Assembly (NCBI GenBank): GCA_002796345.1
Contig: PCXC01000038.1
Span: forward strand, 1 to 52,564
Direction: 5' to 3'
Origin: Deltaproteobacteria bacterium CG11_big_fil_rev_8_21_14_0_20_42_23
GTDB lineage: Bacteria > UBA10199 > 2-02-FULL-44-16
Length of the DNA stretch: 52,564 nucleotides
Position 1 is the first letter of the stretch. Each line of letters begins with the position of its first letter. A program made the translations under genes and the position numbers. The notes beneath the pieces were generated by a model, which saw only the letters and a program-made list of their open reading frames with translations, ran no database searches and had not been told where the DNA came from. Shown one piece after another: positions 34,094-43,636 of this stretch.

Positions 34094-34605
34094 TGTTTAT
34101 GATTCGTAAAACTGCTCTCATTGTTTCCATGTTCATGTTTGTTTCTCTTTTGACCTCGCCAGTGTTTGCCAAAAAGAGAAGTAAGGTCATGACGGTTGAT
34201 GCAGGTGTTCCGCTTGAGCGTTATGGTTTTGCCGTGGATGCAAGTTATGACCCCAGGCTCGATAATCTTGTTCCGGGATATCGAGTGATTAATGTGGCGG
34301 TGGTGAATAATTCGTTCAACATTATCCGACTCGATTCAGCAAAGGATAAGTGGTACGTGAAAATGAGGGGAGAGAGAAAACAAGTTGAGGCTCTCATTAA
34401 CCTCAGAGATTTAGACCTTGAAGCTTGGAGCCAAGTTCCTGAAGCGGCAAAACCTCTTCTTTCCTATCCGCTTGCCATTCCTATTGGAGCGCGACTTGTG
34501 ATTGATATATTTGTCCCTGAAAAAGTGGATCTCTCTTCTTTGAGTATTTTGGGCATGCATATAGCTTACTTAGGACAGCCTGTTGAAGTAAGGCTTGAGA
34601 AGTAA
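34090..34605 (+). CDS. Uncharacterised small secreted protein at the end of the peptide-importer operon
   Basis: A 171-residue product with a signal peptide (about residues 1-26, ending SPVFA). The mature part is mainly beta: YGFAVDASYDPRLDNLVPGY, INVAVVNNSFNIIRLDSAKD, and a final IDIFVPEKVDLSSLSILGMH. It looks like one immunoglobulin-like or DUF4352-like sandwich, but I cannot assign a family. It overlaps the DppF-type gene by four bases, so it is made with the importer; a periplasmic helper role is inferred from that alone. Confidence 0.7.
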   Translation: MMFMIRKTALIVSMFMFVSLLTSPVFAKKRSKVMTVDAGVPLERYGFAVDASYDPRLDNLVPGYRVINVAVVNNSFNIIRLDSAKDKWYVKMRGERKQVEALINLRDLDLEAWSQVPEAAKPLLSYPLAIPIGARLVIDIFVPEKVDLSSLSILGMHIAYLGQPVEVRLEK

Positions 34606-34860
34606 TTTTTTTTACAGCCTGTGCCAGAAATGCGTCTTTTTTTGCTCTTCCGGGTGAAAACTTATCTTTTAAAGAATTTTCAATTTTTCCCATTAATTCC
34701 TTGTAATTCATCAAGTTAACAAAGTTTTCTCATTTTCCCTTCCTTCCCCCTTCTTTCTGGAGGGTTTTTTTAAACCCTTTTCAATCTTTGGGTGAAAAAA
34801 CATCCGTTTTCAAGTGTTTGAATATATTATGTTATTTTAGAAAATAGCTTGTTTAGGTTA
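34606..34860. other. AT-rich intergenic region with a weak terminator hairpin
   Basis: About 255 bases between the importer operon and the protease promoter contain no gene. One hairpin is visible at 34761-34778: AGGGTTT and AAACCCT arms, a TTTT loop and a short T-run after it (34778-34781). It may end the importer transcript. The last 50 bases before the promoter (34805-34860) are very AT-rich, as is usual for activator or IHF binding upstream of sigma-54 promoters. Confidence 0.55.
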
Positions 34861-34876
34861 TGGCACACTCATTGCT
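34861..34876 (+). promoter_or_regulatory. Sigma-54 (RpoN) promoter upstream of the M30-like protease gene
   Basis: The sequence TGGCACACTCATTGCT fits the -24/-12 consensus TGGCAC-N5-TTGC exactly, with the GG and GC dinucleotides ten bases apart. The expected transcription start, about twelve bases beyond the GC, is near 34887, leaving a short leader containing GGGGAG just before ATG 34905. No enhancer-binding activator gene is in the window. Confidence 0.82.
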
Positions 34877-34904
34877 CTCTTAGGGTTATTCGGGGAGCAA
34901 GAAT

Positions 34905-36575
34905 ATGTCGTTTTCAAGCCTACGGGCTCACATTAACCCTTTCGTACTTCTCCTGCTGTTTTTATCGGTTTCGGCTTGCGGTGGATCTTCGGGCTCTGCG
35001 AGCAGTAGTTCAAAAAACACTACTACGGGAGGAGTTGGGGTTTCGAATACGGTTTCATCTCCAGGAGAAATGACGGTTGGAGATATGTATTCATTGCAGC
35101 TTACAAGCGGTGATACCGAGGAAGTAAGTTTTGACGGCGTAGATTCTAGCGCCCAGTTTATTATGATTGTGGGAAATACCAAAGAAGGGGGAACGGGCTC
35201 TTTGGTTCAAGCTTCAAATGATCTTTCGCTTGCTGATCTTTCTTCAAAATCCCTTATTCCTGAGCTTGATGAAGAGAGCGACACAAGTGTGGATGATGAT
35301 GGAGATGAAGAAACCGAATACGGTGCATCAGCAGTGTTTGATGCCTGGCTGAGAGCGGCCGAGTCGGATGTTGCTCTTGAGGAAGGGTGGCTTGATCCTT
35401 CGCCAACGCTTGGAAAAGGTGTGAGCAAATCTGTGATTGTGGGAGACAGTGAAACGTTTCGAGTCCTTTCAAGTTTAAGTTCAGTTACTGCTTATGTGGA
35501 AGTTGATGCTACCGCAAAATATGTTGGAGACAACATTATCTTTTATCTCGATGACAGAGCGGATGATTCACATTTATCTGCCTCAGACATCATCACCTTG
35601 GGTGACATGTATGATGATATGGCCGGAACTGAGTTCAGCATTTTAGGAGACGCCTCCGATGTGGATGGCGATGGGAAGGTGGCGATCCTTGCAACCTTCC
35701 AGCTGAATATTCTTTCGGAAGCTGCTTCAGGTATTATTACAGGATACAACTTTAGTGCCGATGTGCATCCGCGTTCTGGAAGTAACCCGGCCTCAAATGA
35801 ACGTGAAATTGTGTATCAAATCATGTGCGATCCCAACGGAGATTATGGCCCCACCATTAGCAAAAGCTTTTGCCTCAGCAATTTATTGCCGGCGGTGTTT
35901 CCGCATGAGCTCCAGCATTCTATCAATTATAACCAACACGTTTTCGTGAGTGGTGGAAGTATAGAACAAAGCTGGCTCAATGAAGCCATTTCACATTTTA
36001 TGGAAGATTATTTTGGATACGGAAATGAAAACCCATCTCGTTACGCGTTGTACCTGAATAACACGGCTACTACTGGTATCGTCACCACTTCATCTCCAAG
36101 TCTTTATGAGCGTGGTGGTGGCTATCTCTTTTTGCGTTTCTTGTACGAGCAATCAGGGAAAAGTACTACTTTCTTACAAAGCCTTGAACAAACTTCACTG
36201 CGAGGCACAGAAAATATTGAAGCGGCCTTTGGTGGTGCAGCAGATTTTGATCAATTTTCAGAATTCTTCGGACGATGGAGTGTGGCGCTTGCAATGACCA
36301 ATGCTGGAGTGACAAGAGATAGCCGATACATTTTTGAAGATCGTACATACAATTCAACAACGGGAAATTGGGAAGGTGTTTGTCTTTCCTGTGATGCTGA
36401 TGATAATCGAGGAACAACATTGACGGGAGTAAGAACGTATTCTCACACTTCATATTCCTCAGCTAGTCTTGATTCTTCTGCAGCCAAATTTTATACCATT
36501 TCATCACCACCAAGCACGCTTTCTTTTTCGGGTACTTCAGATAACGATTACATTTTGTTGATCCGCACGGAATAA
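34905..36575 (+). CDS. M30 (hyicolysin-like) secreted metalloprotease lipoprotein
   Basis: A 556-residue lipoprotein. The signal peptide ends in LFLSVSACGG with the lipid-anchoring Cys at residue 25, then a Gly/Ser/Thr-rich linker. The catalytic zinc motif is FPHELQHSINYNQH with HELQH at residues 334-338, and the third ligand is probably Glu360 in WLNEAISHFMEDYFG. This layout matches the M30 hyicolysin peptidases. An acidic segment (about 120-145, DEESDTSVDDDGDEE) and a DVDGDGKV calcium-loop-like motif suggest metal binding. A sigma-54 promoter lies 29 bases upstream of the start, so expression is probably under environmental or developmental control. Likely a surface or secreted protease. 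Confidence 0.85.
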   Translation: MSFSSLRAHINPFVLLLLFLSVSACGGSSGSASSSSKNTTTGGVGVSNTVSSPGEMTVGDMYSLQLTSGDTEEVSFDGVDSSAQFIMIVGNTKEGGTGSLVQASNDLSLADLSSKSLIPELDEESDTSVDDDGDEETEYGASAVFDAWLRAAESDVALEEGWLDPSPTLGKGVSKSVIVGDSETFRVLSSLSSVTAYVEVDATAKYVGDNIIFYLDDRADDSHLSASDIITLGDMYDDMAGTEFSILGDASDVDGDGKVAILATFQLNILSEAASGIITGYNFSADVHPRSGSNPASNEREIVYQIMCDPNGDYGPTISKSFCLSNLLPAVFPHELQHSINYNQHVFVSGGSIEQSWLNEAISHFMEDYFGYGNENPSRYALYLNNTATTGIVTTSSPSLYERGGGYLFLRFLYEQSGKSTTFLQSLEQTSLRGTENIEAAFGGAADFDQFSEFFGRWSVALAMTNAGVTRDSRYIFEDRTYNSTTGNWEGVCLSCDADDNRGTTLTGVRTYSHTSYSSASLDSSAAKFYTISSPPSTLSFSGTSDNDYILLIRTE

Positions 36576-36622: not shown

Positions 36623-37414
36623 ATGCATCCCATCCTTTTTCACATTCCCTTTTTAGGAAATTTTGCACTTCACAGTTATGGTTTAATGATTGCCACCGGT
36701 GTGTTCATGGCACTTTTGTGGGCCAAGCATGATGCAAAAGTCCGTGGGCAAAATCCCGATACGGTAGTTGATTTTGTTTTCTATCTTCTTTTTTCGGGAA
36801 TGATTGGCGCCAGACTTCATTATGTTTTGGTTTCGGATTGGGAAAGCTTTTCGGCCAATCCACTTTTCTTCTTTCAGATTTGGAAGGGTGGGCTTTCGTT
36901 TTATGGTGGCGTCATTACAGCGTTTGCGGCCTCGTTTCTTTTTTTCAAACGAAAAAAAGTTTCAGCTTCGGCGTATCTTGACATCATTGCTCCGGGCATT
37001 GCTTTGGGCCATGTGTTTGGACGTATCGGTTGCTTTCTTGCGGGCTGCTGTTATGGGCGCGAACTTGATCATGCGGCTTGGTATGGGGTTGTCTTTCCGG
37101 ATACAGCGTCCACAATTGCACCTCCAAATGTTCCTCTGTATCCCACACAGCTGATGGAATCTGGCGCAGAACTTCTTCTTTTTGTCTTTCTCCTTTTACT
37201 GCGAAAGCGTCAGAAGTTTTCGGGTCAGATTTTTGCCTCTTACATTGCAGTCTATTCTCTTGTGCGTTTTGTGCTGGAATATTTCCGAGGCGATCTTATT
37301 CGCGGATTTGTTTTTGGTGGTATGTTCTCAACGTCTCAGTTTTTGAGCCTTCTCTTGTTTTTCGTTTCGCTTTTCTATATTTTGTTTCACCTAAAAAGGG
37401 AGAAAAAAAGATGA
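36623..37414 (+). CDS. lgt: Prolipoprotein diacylglyceryl transferase
   Basis: Lgt adds diacylglycerol from phosphatidylglycerol to the lipobox Cys of prolipoproteins, the first step of lipoprotein maturation at the inner membrane. The 263-residue protein has about seven helices. Motifs are GMIGARLHYVL, IWKGGLSFYGGV, and GRIGCFLAGCCYGRE with Arg134 corresponding to the essential Arg of the family; RFVLEYFRGD lies near the end. The E. coli Asn in GRxGNF is Cys here, a variant common outside the gamma-proteobacteria. The stop overlaps the next lipoprotein start (ATGA). Confidence 0.94.
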   Translation: MHPILFHIPFLGNFALHSYGLMIATGVFMALLWAKHDAKVRGQNPDTVVDFVFYLLFSGMIGARLHYVLVSDWESFSANPLFFFQIWKGGLSFYGGVITAFAASFLFFKRKKVSASAYLDIIAPGIALGHVFGRIGCFLAGCCYGRELDHAAWYGVVFPDTASTIAPPNVPLYPTQLMESGAELLLFVFLLLLRKRQKFSGQIFASYIAVYSLVRFVLEYFRGDLIRGFVFGGMFSTSQFLSLLLFFVSLFYILFHLKREKKR

Positions 37415-37929
37415 TATCTTTTTCGCGTTTGAAGTCACCTGTTCATGGATCTGCATTTCTTTTTCTTTTTTGTATTTTGCTTTCTTCACTGCAGCTTGCA
37501 TGTTCAAAGCCGTTGGTTCAAGCTCGCGTGAGTGAAAAAATTGTTTATTTTGATGATGAAATGAAGTCCACTCCCAACGAAGCCTACTATGCTATTCGTG
37601 ATAGTTTGAGCACTTTTGGTTATGGGATTGAATCTGAAGATCTTCCAAAAGGCCTTATTGTTACCACTTGGGTTCCCACAAAATCTGATTCACATTATGT
37701 TGCTCCATTTGAACACAGAGACTATGCGGTGAATGGTGCCTACCACCAACTTCGCATTTACGTTGAACCAGACGAAAATAAAGTAAAAGTAAAAATTGGT
37801 TCCAGGGTAAAAAGTCTTGTCTCAACCTTGAAATCATCAGGCTATGAAGAGAAAAGAATTCTTTCCGATCTCAAAAAACGACTTCGAAAAGGTGAGCCTG
37901 AAATTACAAACCTTGGCATTACAGAATAA
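37411..37929 (+). CDS. Uncharacterised lipoprotein between lgt and lspA
   Basis: A 172-residue lipoprotein that starts at ATG 37411, overlapping the lgt stop; an open frame extending back to 37078 is only a shadow of lgt. A long signal with LSSLQLACSK (Cys at residue 31) is followed by a soluble domain containing EAYYAIRDSLSTFGYGI and GLIVTTWVPTKSDSHYV, with no family I can name. Its place between the two lipoprotein-processing enzymes suggests it is simply coexpressed. AAAGGGAG precedes the start. Confidence 0.75.
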   Translation: MISFSRLKSPVHGSAFLFLFCILLSSLQLACSKPLVQARVSEKIVYFDDEMKSTPNEAYYAIRDSLSTFGYGIESEDLPKGLIVTTWVPTKSDSHYVAPFEHRDYAVNGAYHQLRIYVEPDENKVKVKIGSRVKSLVSTLKSSGYEEKRILSDLKKRLRKGEPEITNLGITE

Positions 37930-37958
37930 AGTCCTTTTTGCTTCTGGAAAAAACAAAC

Positions 37959-38480
37959 ATGAAAACAAAAACTCGCATCACTTTTTTCCTTGCGCCGATG
38001 ATCTATTTTCTTGATCAATTCACAAAAAACCTTGTGCTTCATTTTCTCACTCTTGGTGAGAGAATCAGTATCATTCCTGGTTATTTTGATCTTGTTTCTT
38101 TTCGAAATACTGGCGCTGCTTTTGGAATTTTTTCTGAAGTTGAAGATCCTTATCGTTCTCTTTTCTTTTATGGGATTGGAATTGTGGCGCTTGTGGCATT
38201 GGCCTTTTTTTATCGCTCTTTGCAAAACAATGAAAAGCTGATGCCAACTACTTTGGCGCTTATTTTGGGTGGTTTGCTTGGAAATTTTACCGATCGCATC
38301 CGGCTTGGAAGCGTTGTTGATTTTCTTTCTTTTCATTACCAAGATCACGTGGCGGATTTTTCACTGTTCGGCAAAACCTTTTTCTTTGCCTTGGAATGGC
38401 CTGCGTTTAATGTTGCCGATGCGGCCATTAGCACGGCAATGATTTTGCTTCTCATTTCGATGTGGAAAAAACCAGCCTAA
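37959..38480 (+). CDS. lspA: Lipoprotein signal peptidase II
   Basis: LspA cleaves the signal peptide of diacylglyceryl-modified prolipoproteins, just before the lipidated Cys. The 173-residue protein has four helices. Motifs are FLDQFTKNLV, SFRNTGAAFG, GGLLGNFTDRIRLGSVVDFL with the first catalytic Asp, and AFNVADAAISTAM with the second. I chose ATG 37959 over TTG 37938 because it begins the helical N-terminus. It stands between two lgt genes, so lipoprotein maturation is encoded as a unit. Confidence 0.95.
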   Translation: MKTKTRITFFLAPMIYFLDQFTKNLVLHFLTLGERISIIPGYFDLVSFRNTGAAFGIFSEVEDPYRSLFFYGIGIVALVALAFFYRSLQNNEKLMPTTLALILGGLLGNFTDRIRLGSVVDFLSFHYQDHVADFSLFGKTFFFALEWPAFNVADAAISTAMILLLISMWKKPA

Positions 38481-38504
38481 CGTTTTTACCTTTGGGGGAC
38501 AAAG

Positions 38505-39302
38505 ATGAGACCAATTCTTTTTGAACTTTTTGGAATGGCTGTTCCCGCATTCTTTTTTACTATTATGGTGGGATCGCTTGTTGCCATTTTTTATGCTGCG
38601 CATGAAGCCAAAAAAGAAAACTTGAGCCCGGTGATGGTGATTGATCTTGGAATTATCGCCATTCTTTCTGCGGTGCTCGGCGCGCGTATTTTTCATATTT
38701 TGGTTGAATATCCTTCCTATTATTGGGCTGATCCCATTCGCGTTTTCTATTTTTGGCAAGGTGGATTTGTTTCTATCGGTGCCTATATTGGCGCTGCCGT
38801 TGCGTGCGTTTGGTACATGAAGTTTAAAAAAGTTGTAGCCTGGCGCTACGTCGATTTGTTGGTAAAAGTTTTGCCCATTGTCATCTTTTGCGTGCGAGCA
38901 GGCTGTTTGCTGGTAGGCTGCTGTTATGGAAAGCCAACTGATTTTTGGCTTCACCTTACTTTTCACGATCCCGCTTCAACGGCATATTATTATCACCCCA
39001 ATATTCCACTACACGCGACACAAATTTATTTTATGTTCAGCGCCGTTGTGCTTTTTTTCCTTTTGCACTTTGTCTACAAAAAGAAAAAATTTATGGGGCA
39101 AGTGACTTCAGTTTTTCTTATGTATTACGGAATCTCTCGCTTTTTGATCGAATTTTTACGTGGAGACGACGACAGAGGTTTGTTTAGTTTCTTTGGAGTT
39201 ACTCTTTCCACGGGTCAAATTTCGATGTTATGTGCTTTTTTTGCAGGAGTTATTTTGTGGAAAGTGATGAAAAAGAAATCACTTCCTTCAAATGTGTTGT
39301 AG
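38505..39302 (+). CDS. Second, divergent Lgt-family protein
   Basis: A 265-residue paralogue of Lgt directly after lspA. Conserved marks are the RAGCLLVGCCYGKPTDFW motif (Arg131) and RFLIEFLRGDDDRG near the end. The loop that reads GGLSFYGG in the first copy is GGFVSIGAY here, a change at a position conserved in authentic Lgt. It may be a second diacylglyceryl transferase with other substrates or an enzyme with a different acceptor. It starts 24 bases after the lspA stop; GGGGGAC precedes the ATG. Tandem Lgt paralogues are known in other deltaproteobacteria, but functions are mostly untested. Confidence 0.85.
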   Translation: MRPILFELFGMAVPAFFFTIMVGSLVAIFYAAHEAKKENLSPVMVIDLGIIAILSAVLGARIFHILVEYPSYYWADPIRVFYFWQGGFVSIGAYIGAAVACVWYMKFKKVVAWRYVDLLVKVLPIVIFCVRAGCLLVGCCYGKPTDFWLHLTFHDPASTAYYYHPNIPLHATQIYFMFSAVVLFFLLHFVYKKKKFMGQVTSVFLMYYGISRFLIEFLRGDDDRGLFSFFGVTLSTGQISMLCAFFAGVILWKVMKKKSLPSNVL

Positions 39303-39325
39303 CTGAAGCGTGAAAGGGAAGAGGA

Positions 39326-39994
39326 ATGCGAAAAAAAATCATGCTTGAATTATGCATAGCTCTTCTTTTGTTGCTTATTCCGTCACATCTTTTTTTTCGT
39401 CTTCGCTTTATTCCTCTTGTTCATGAGTTGTTGCCAGCTCTTGTTGCTTTTTTGTTATTTTATATTCCACTTTTCTTTTTGAAAAAAACAAAAACGCATG
39501 TTTCATTTTTTGATCCTACGCTAAAAAAGTTTTTCTCCTCAGTTCTTCTTTTTCTTCTTGTTTCAGTTCTTGTGTTTCCACTTTTTGGAATTCTGGCTCA
39601 TTTTTGGATGAAAATTTTCTATCATGTTTCATCGTTTCACTTTGCTGCATTTACTGCTGAAATGTGGCAGTTGGCTTTGTTTCAAGTTGTTGTTATAGCG
39701 CTCCCAGAAGAATTTTTCTTTCGAGGCTATCTGCAAGAACGCATGAATCTTCTATTTCCTTCAAAGCCTTGGAAAATATTTGGAGTACATTTAGGAAAAT
39801 CTTGGCTGCTGACAGCATTTGTATTTGCTTTGGCGCATTCTCTTATTGTTGTTCAGTGGTGGCATTTTTCCATTTTCTTCCCCGCACTTTTGTTTGGCTA
39901 TCTTCGTGAAAAGACCGGCAGCATCACCGCCGCGGTGTTTTTCCATGCAGCGTGTAATGTTTTTATGGTTTGGTTTATGAGTTGTTATTCCTAG
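39326..39994 (+). CDS. CPBP (CAAX-type) intramembrane glutamic protease
   Basis: A 222-residue membrane protein with about six helices. The catalytic CPBP motif EExxxR is ALPEEFFFRGYLQERMN (about residues 126-142). A His-bearing helix FALAHSLIVVQWWHF and the last motif AAVFFHAACNVFMVW supply the other active-site residues. Related proteins process prenylated or sorted peptides, or protect against bacteriocins. The substrate here is unknown, and I see no protein with a MYXO-CTERM-type tail in the window. It is 24 bases after the second lgt and probably belongs to the same operon. Confidence 0.85.
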   Translation: MRKKIMLELCIALLLLLIPSHLFFRLRFIPLVHELLPALVAFLLFYIPLFFLKKTKTHVSFFDPTLKKFFSSVLLFLLVSVLVFPLFGILAHFWMKIFYHVSSFHFAAFTAEMWQLALFQVVVIALPEEFFFRGYLQERMNLLFPSKPWKIFGVHLGKSWLLTAFVFALAHSLIVVQWWHFSIFFPALLFGYLREKTGSITAAVFFHAACNVFMVWFMSCYS

Positions 39995-43276: not shown

Positions 43277-43292
43277 TGGCACGGACATTGCT
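43277..43292 (+). promoter_or_regulatory. Sigma-54 (RpoN) promoter upstream of a tiny secreted protein gene
   Basis: TGGCACGGACATTGCT matches TGGCAC-N5-TTGC exactly, including the G after the -24 element. The expected start is near 43304, about 27 bases before ATG 43331. It shares one 146-base intergenic region with the divergent lexA operator. Confidence 0.82.
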
Positions 43293-43330: not shown

Positions 43331-43636
43331 ATGAAGGCGAAAATTATTTTTGGAGTTTCGTTTCTTTTGTTCATTTTTTCCATTTCATTGGTATGCATGG
43401 TATCAGATGAGAAGGACAGCGATAACGATTCAGGTGGATTCGAATCTGGAATAGAAACAGATTTCGCTTTTAAAAGTGCCGACGATCTTCTTCAAGAGTA
43501 TTTATGGAAAAATTTCTCCATGCCGATTTACCTCAATCACTATAGTCCGGGAAGGCAGGAAGAAAGTTTTCGCGTGGGGCCAAATATTCGCATTAGGCAT
43601 CAAGGTTTGATGGCGGAGTTGCAGTTGAAGTTTTAA
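43331..43636 (+). CDS. Tiny secreted protein of unknown function
   Basis: A 101-residue product. Residues 1-22 (MKAKIIFGVSFLLFIFSISL) form a signal peptide or single anchor. A Cys at residue 22 could be a lipobox, but ISLVCM is a poor match. The next 25 residues are acidic (DEKDSDNDSGGFESGIETD). The C-terminal half ends in alternating strand-like sequence closing in Phe (LMAELQLKF), which suggests a small beta-rich or outer-membrane-associated part. AAAGGGAG precedes the ATG. A sigma-54 promoter stands upstream. I know no family. Confidence 0.75.
   Translation: MKAKIIFGVSFLLFIFSISLVCMVSDEKDSDNDSGGFESGIETDFAFKSADDLLQEYLWKNFSMPIYLNHYSPGRQEESFRVGPNIRIRHQGLMAELQLKF

Follow-up and report, generated by a model that had tools for sequence, protein, structure and literature searches.

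Does an exact sigma-54 consensus in front of a predicted surface protease gene act as a promoter, and if so, what would bring it into action? The question arises at a locus within the window, by which we mean the whole 52,564-nucleotide stretch of DNA analyzed here. A sequence-only reading had placed a sigma-54 promoter ahead of an M30-like lipoprotein protease at this locus and had argued for a dedicated activator. The promoter and the gene that follows it comprise these features:

34861..34876, + strand: sigma-54 core promoter, −24/−12 element; exact consensus, kept before 36 of 49 homologous genes
34887, + strand: predicted transcription start, placed from the −12 position
34892..34897, + strand: Shine-Dalgarno sequence GGGGAG, read from the sequence
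34905..36575, + strand: M30-like metalloprotease lipoprotein, 556 aa (HELQH 334-338, E360, lipobox Cys25)

The core element, TGGCACACTCATTGCT, matches the sigma-54 consensus TGGCACRNNNNTTGCW perfectly. The TGGCAC-N5-TTGC site with ten bases between GG and GC is indeed present, as TGGCAC-ACTCA-TTGC at 34861-34875 of the + strand (GG at 34862-34863, GC at 34874-34875). The proposed spacing to a ribosome site is found as well, with the ATG at 34905 lying 28 bases beyond the 3′ end of TGGCACACTCATTGCT and a predicted leader of 18 nt that contains GGGGAG, and the region described as AT-rich (34606-34860) is 69% A+T compared with 57% in the window. Perfect matches to the consensus occur twice in the window, at 34861-34876 and 43277-43292. 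Matches with up to two mismatches number 20 against 20.6 expected by chance and so show no excess, for which reason the case for a promoter is built on the exact match together with its conservation. No sigma-70-like site was found on the + strand of 34400-35000, and an Rfam search of the window returned no match.

Conservation was assessed in 60 genomes, the genome of origin and 59 others, 39 of which (the genome of origin included) carry homologs of the protease. Where relatives carry a name they are ‘Deltaproteobacteria’ MAGs, apart from a few entered as Bdellovibrio, Nitrospira or just bacterium, and their group is presumably GTDB UBA10199. When up to two mismatches were allowed and GG and GC had to be kept, the −24/−12 element was seen before 36 of the 49 distinct homologs, exactly in 19, with one mismatch in 12 and with two in 5; shuffles of the same 36 regions gave 0 exact matches and a mean of 0.7, at most 3, with two or fewer mismatches. 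Among the other 13 homologs, eight are cut by a contig end (L111, which shows a site, is among them), three are fragments or frame-broken (the gene of one, L030, appears again as L183 with site and palindrome), one has 49 bp upstream and one is siteless, L116 being the one complete homolog without a sigma-54 site.

The machinery that such a promoter would need is encoded alongside it. The sequence-only reading, which would have fallen had the genome lacked RpoN, suggested looking for RpoN and for enhancer-binding proteins; the genome (2.03 Mb, 81 contigs) encodes one RpoN (PF04552, E 1.8e-65), so that this ground for giving the promoter up does not apply, and eight strong PF00158 sigma-54 activators (E 2e-38 or better). 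RpoN was detected in 56 of the 60 genomes. The exact pattern TGGCAC-N5-TTGC occurs at 13 sites in the genome of origin compared with 2 for the reversed pattern, and TGGCAY-N5-TTGCTYT occurs 532 times in 46 genomes of the class compared with 5 reversed (14 genomes of other groups: 19 compared with 4). On conservation, genome counts and shuffles, a chance match was rejected. The DNA before the protease gene is thus very probably a real sigma-54 promoter, and the reading of 34861-34876 as such is supported.

The identity assigned to the gene product also stood up. A Pfam search of the protein at E 0.01 returned no family; the best solved relative by sequence was lugdulysin, an M30 zinc peptidase (E 9.4e-8). 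An AlphaFold2 model built from 27 homologs had a mean pLDDT of 84, and a fold search with this model again gave lugdulysin as the top match (E 2.3e-14, TM 0.69 by target length). Residues H334, E335, H338 and E360 are invariant in 27 sequences and include a complete HExxH motif; E360 is probably the glutamate that serves as third zinc ligand. The lipobox SACG, with a Cys25 invariant in 27 aligned homologs, marks a lipoprotein signal peptide, in keeping with the earlier assignment. Like lugdulysin, the Staphylococcus lugdunensis M30 zinc metallopeptidase (PDB 7bb8/7bb9), the protein conserves HExxH and a downstream Glu; unlike it, the protein is a lipoprotein with extra N- and C-terminal parts, at about 20% identity. 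Because Arg403 aligns to the Y-to-F site of 7bb9 and replaces the Tyr of family M30, we call the protein M30-like rather than M30.

We then considered what might activate the promoter. The upstream region contains three further features:

34748..34764, + strand: terminator-like hairpin followed by a T run, overlapping the first palindrome; 1 found, 0.8 expected from shuffles
34762..34777, + strand: palindrome GGGT-N8-ACCC (GGGTTTTTTTAAACCC), a candidate enhancer at which an activator may bind; 15 of 36 homologs have an exact copy
34790..34805, + strand: a further copy of the palindrome, GGGTGAAAAAACATCC, imperfect at one base

A dyad scan for palindromic four-base arms in the 186 bp upstream recovered GGGT-N8-ACCC in 14 homologs, compared with 0.0 expected. 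Within 300 bp upstream, exact copies were present in 15 of the 36 homologs (200 shuffles: mean 0.115, max 2) and copies with at most one mismatch in 26 (shuffle mean 1.98, max 6). The distance to the −24 element fell between 89 and 125 bp in 14 of the 15 exact copies, and one family member, L033, likewise carries an imperfect copy, spaced as at 34790-34805. Palindrome and promoter in combination occurred 32 times in 22 of the 60 genomes (two of the 32 being overlapping matches at one promoter) and never in the reversed control, which makes GGGT-N8-ACCC a candidate dedicated enhancer. By our own count the protease lies downstream of 14 of these 32 sites, 12 identified by BLAST and two matched by place. 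The others mostly precede lipoproteins or other exported proteins, as judged by eye, with exceptions such as a response regulator, and in several homologs the combination is also found between divergent genes. The conserved palindrome makes the proposed dedicated activator likelier.

Two other accounts of this region have to be weighed. It is highly improbable that the element at 34861-34876 is a chance or relic match and that another promoter drives the protease gene. Two genomes of the class (G034 and G039, family f20) do keep sigma-54-like sites and strong activators with no RpoN detected, which could reflect a gap or a real loss; at the protease locus of G034 (L049), the expected transcript start coincides with the start codon. 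Preservation of the element before most homologous genes, the excess over reversed patterns across the class and the lack of a sigma-70-like site on the + strand around the gene all run against this account. The palindrome, for its part, might form all or part of a terminator for the upstream gene rather than an activator site, and the exact copy in the window does overlap a terminator-like hairpin with a T run. We consider this unlikely: the upstream gene is divergent in several palindrome-bearing homologs, where its orientation defeats the terminator reading, the spacing to the −24 element is held within the narrow range given above, and the stem has four fixed pairs enclosing a loop rich in A and T.

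Within the loci scanned in the genome of origin, no exact palindrome was found near activator genes. On one contig (L149:4202-11791, C81), three tandem NtrC-type activators lie beside a kinase, together with ORFs that by eye resemble STAS, anti-sigma kinase and PP2C phosphatase proteins. Tandem activators of this type recur in many genomes of the class and are more widely spread than the type found on C34, and one of the three is perhaps the activator of the palindrome. The diverged homolog L116 adjoins an activator related to the one on C34, an activator for which most of the class shows no clear ortholog. The C34 protein (L131:1182-2225) is PspF-like without a receiver domain, and an exact sigma-54 site before its own gene suggests a sigma-54 cascade or self-control. 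A further activator-like PF00158 protein (L022, C48), read by eye, has AAVSGA in place of GAFTGA in its loop and may therefore not act on sigma-54.

The promoter and the leader share a second property, which would bear on how the protease is expressed:

34862..34909, + strand: predicted hairpin in RNA begun upstream, from folding and opening energies

The 5′ arm of this hairpin is the core promoter itself (TTGCTC, 34872-34877) and the 3′ arm is the Shine-Dalgarno and start region (GAGCAA, 34895-34900). The computed energy for opening the start region is 14.4 kcal/mol in RNA that contains the promoter compared with 3.3 in the sigma-54 RNA, such that the start site is buried about 11 kcal/mol deeper in the upstream-begun RNA; by energy calculation, then, the ribosome site is hidden in the long RNA and free in the gene's own. 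For the window gene, z against a shuffled left arm was 2.2-2.6. Across homologs the mean difference in opening energy was 6.6, compared with 1.2 in a control set of 41 window genes (MWU p 9e-12), although the control values are not independent because each of the 41 genes was cut at six points, and two homologs entered this comparison and the arm swap below with a wrong start codon. With the −24/−12 bases fixed and the left arm shuffled around them, z exceeded 2 in 18 of 33 homologs, a set with script-chosen start codons, the two wrong ones put right, that leaves out L115, L049 and L052; the same test on 14 group means gave p 0.0004, the family labels behind these means being partly our own mapping of named contigs to handles. 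Homologs' own arms also paired better than swapped ones (−17.2 compared with −13.7; 0 of 20,000 permutations, with relatedness not removed).

The effect seems to belong to the leader of this protease and is not supported as a general feature of the regulon, since no clear hairpin was seen at other sigma-54 promoters of the same genome (p 0.12; z > 2 in 3 of 18) and no clear excess at other sigma-54 genes of the class (z > 2 in 3 of 26). Little strict covariation of the hairpin pairs was found within clades, where the pairs hardly change.

A leader hairpin that hides the ribosome site in read-through mRNA, and not in mRNA from the gene's own promoter, occurs in IS10 transposase and in phage T4 gene e. 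As in those systems, both arms here are present in upstream-initiated RNA and the gene's own transcript would lack the 5′ arm; unlike in those systems, the 5′ arm is a sigma-54 core promoter element and the gene is a chromosomal one for a surface protease. Among the open-access papers searched, none joined a sigma-54 promoter, a Shine-Dalgarno sequence, a hairpin and read-through.

These elements suggest the following sequence of events. RpoN polymerase would sit in a closed complex on 34861-34876 until an NtrC-type activator, bound to the GGGT-N8-ACCC palindrome or palindromes some 70-100 bp before the −24 element, opens the complex. RNA would then begin near 34887 with a short leader and a free Shine-Dalgarno sequence. 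The promoter DNA is missing from this transcript and is complementary to the Shine-Dalgarno and start region. A messenger started further upstream, such as one reading through from the oligopeptide-ABC operon that precedes the protease gene on the same strand, would therefore fold and hide the start codon, and the protease would be made only when sigma-54 fires. We are confident in the overall explanation, in which 34861-34876 works as a sigma-54 (RpoN) promoter for an M30-like surface lipoprotease, with a probable activator site at the palindrome(s) and a leader complementary to the promoter.

The role of the hairpin is where this explanation divides. The promoter sequence may mask the translation start in any messenger begun further upstream, from which we infer that only sigma-54-initiated mRNA is well translated; insulation from read-through is our own reading of what the leader hairpin would do. 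In its full form, the −24/−12 element acts as an antisense arm that blocks the start, so that the protease comes only from RpoN-initiated mRNA, and a class-wide activator of GGGT-N8-ACCC ties the protease to other surface lipoproteins; this we hold tentatively, at somewhat below even odds. There is an even chance that the promoter and activator site are ordinary and that the hairpin is a by-product without a role, arising because the −12 region is rich in pyrimidines and the Shine-Dalgarno sequence opposite it is rich in purines. Such a by-product would fit the other sigma-54 genes of the class, whose mean difference is positive with no excess over shuffled left arms, and also pairs that are mostly constant within clades, as descent alone would leave them. 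Fitting it less well are the better pairing of homologs' own arms than swapped ones and the excess that persists when all of the arm except the −24/−12 bases is shuffled.

Sigma-54 promoters have been described as controllers of the bacterial exterior (Francke et al. 2011, PMC3162934). With the systems surveyed there, the present locus shares the −24/−12 consensus, RpoN, NtrC-type activators and cell-surface targets that include lipoproteins; it differs from them in that the surface proteins are themselves the targets, in its uncultured class, and in the conserved GGGT-N8-ACCC site and the leader hairpin formed with the promoter. Sigma-54 control of surface proteins is thus already known, and what is new here is the candidate class-wide enhancer and the predicted hairpin with the promoter as its antisense arm. 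Together they offer a testable sigma-54 regulon of surface proteins, complete with a candidate enhancer, in bacteria that seem to be represented by metagenomes alone. Should the hairpin have the proposed function, a core promoter element would double as an RNA regulatory element, expression would depend strictly on sigma-54 even within a transcribed region, and the −24/−12 bases of such genes would be conserved under two constraints instead of one.

For the wider regulon, we assembled 21 promoters from the genome of origin: 12 of the 13 exact TGGCAC-N5-TTGC sites (the one on C37 was dropped as lying inside an ORF), five more, and four picked by eye from 34 two-mismatch matches after 15 had been viewed. 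Among the products encoded behind these sites are lipoproteins and large exported proteins. A plain hydrophobicity rule gave no enrichment of note for exported proteins (14/21 compared with 23/41 window genes); a stricter rule, devised afterwards, gave 13/21 compared with 13/41 (p 0.02), and a lipobox rule, also devised afterwards, 7/21 compared with 2/41 (p 0.005), with one of the seven lipobox products (C77) looking by eye like an ordinary signal peptide. Upstream of 5 of the 21 promoters (C17, C51, C57, C68, C80) lies TCTC-N5-GAGA, perhaps the site of a second, different activator. Another sigma-54 site (L138:3587-6700, C66) precedes a short pilin-like ORF (T4SS_pilin 18.7 bits, cut-off 26.6), and an 850-aa ORF at the same locus is perhaps VirB4-like, by eye.

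The genes that follow the protease concern lipoprotein processing:

36623..37414, + strand: lgt, prolipoprotein diacylglyceryl transferase (PF01790)
37938..38480, + strand: lspA, lipoprotein signal peptidase (PF01252)
38505..39302, + strand: second lgt (PF01790)
39326..39994, + strand: myxosortase-like intramembrane protease (NF040914 Mrt_core, 121.7 bits, cut-off 100)

With a small lipoprotein gene between the first lgt and lspA, 36623-39994 forms a lipoprotein-anchoring cluster, and its last gene scores as a myxosortase core protease. In many relatives an ORF of about 260 aa follows the protease, which we read as lgt from its sequence, without a domain search. Regulon and anchoring context fit, and do not prove, a sigma-54 programme for surface proteins.

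In myxobacteria, lipidation followed by cleavage of C-terminal signals has been proposed (PMC11980579). The locus resembles myxosortase/MYXO-CTERM sorting in its myxosortase-like neighbor and two lgt genes, and in the C-terminal tails of several regulon proteins, which read GG(G)CSL and in some cases run on into a hydrophobic stretch; unlike the MYXO-CTERM targets, the protease is an N-terminal lipoprotein and is not C-terminally sorted. None of the open-access papers searched linked sigma-54 with myxosortase. Products behind sigma-54 sites at L134, L139, L143, L133 and L148 carry GGxCxL-type tails that resemble sorting signals, and in some of the GGxCxL-tailed products of the genome of origin a hydrophobic stretch and a basic end can be seen by eye. 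JDVT-CTERM scored 14.7 and 14.9 bits, below its cut-off of 27, in two of six proteins scanned. The second exact sigma-54 site of the window, TGGCACGGACATTGCT at 43277-43292, precedes a 101-aa ORF (43331-43636) that has a hydrophobic N-terminus and no family match and is divergent from a LexA-like gene.
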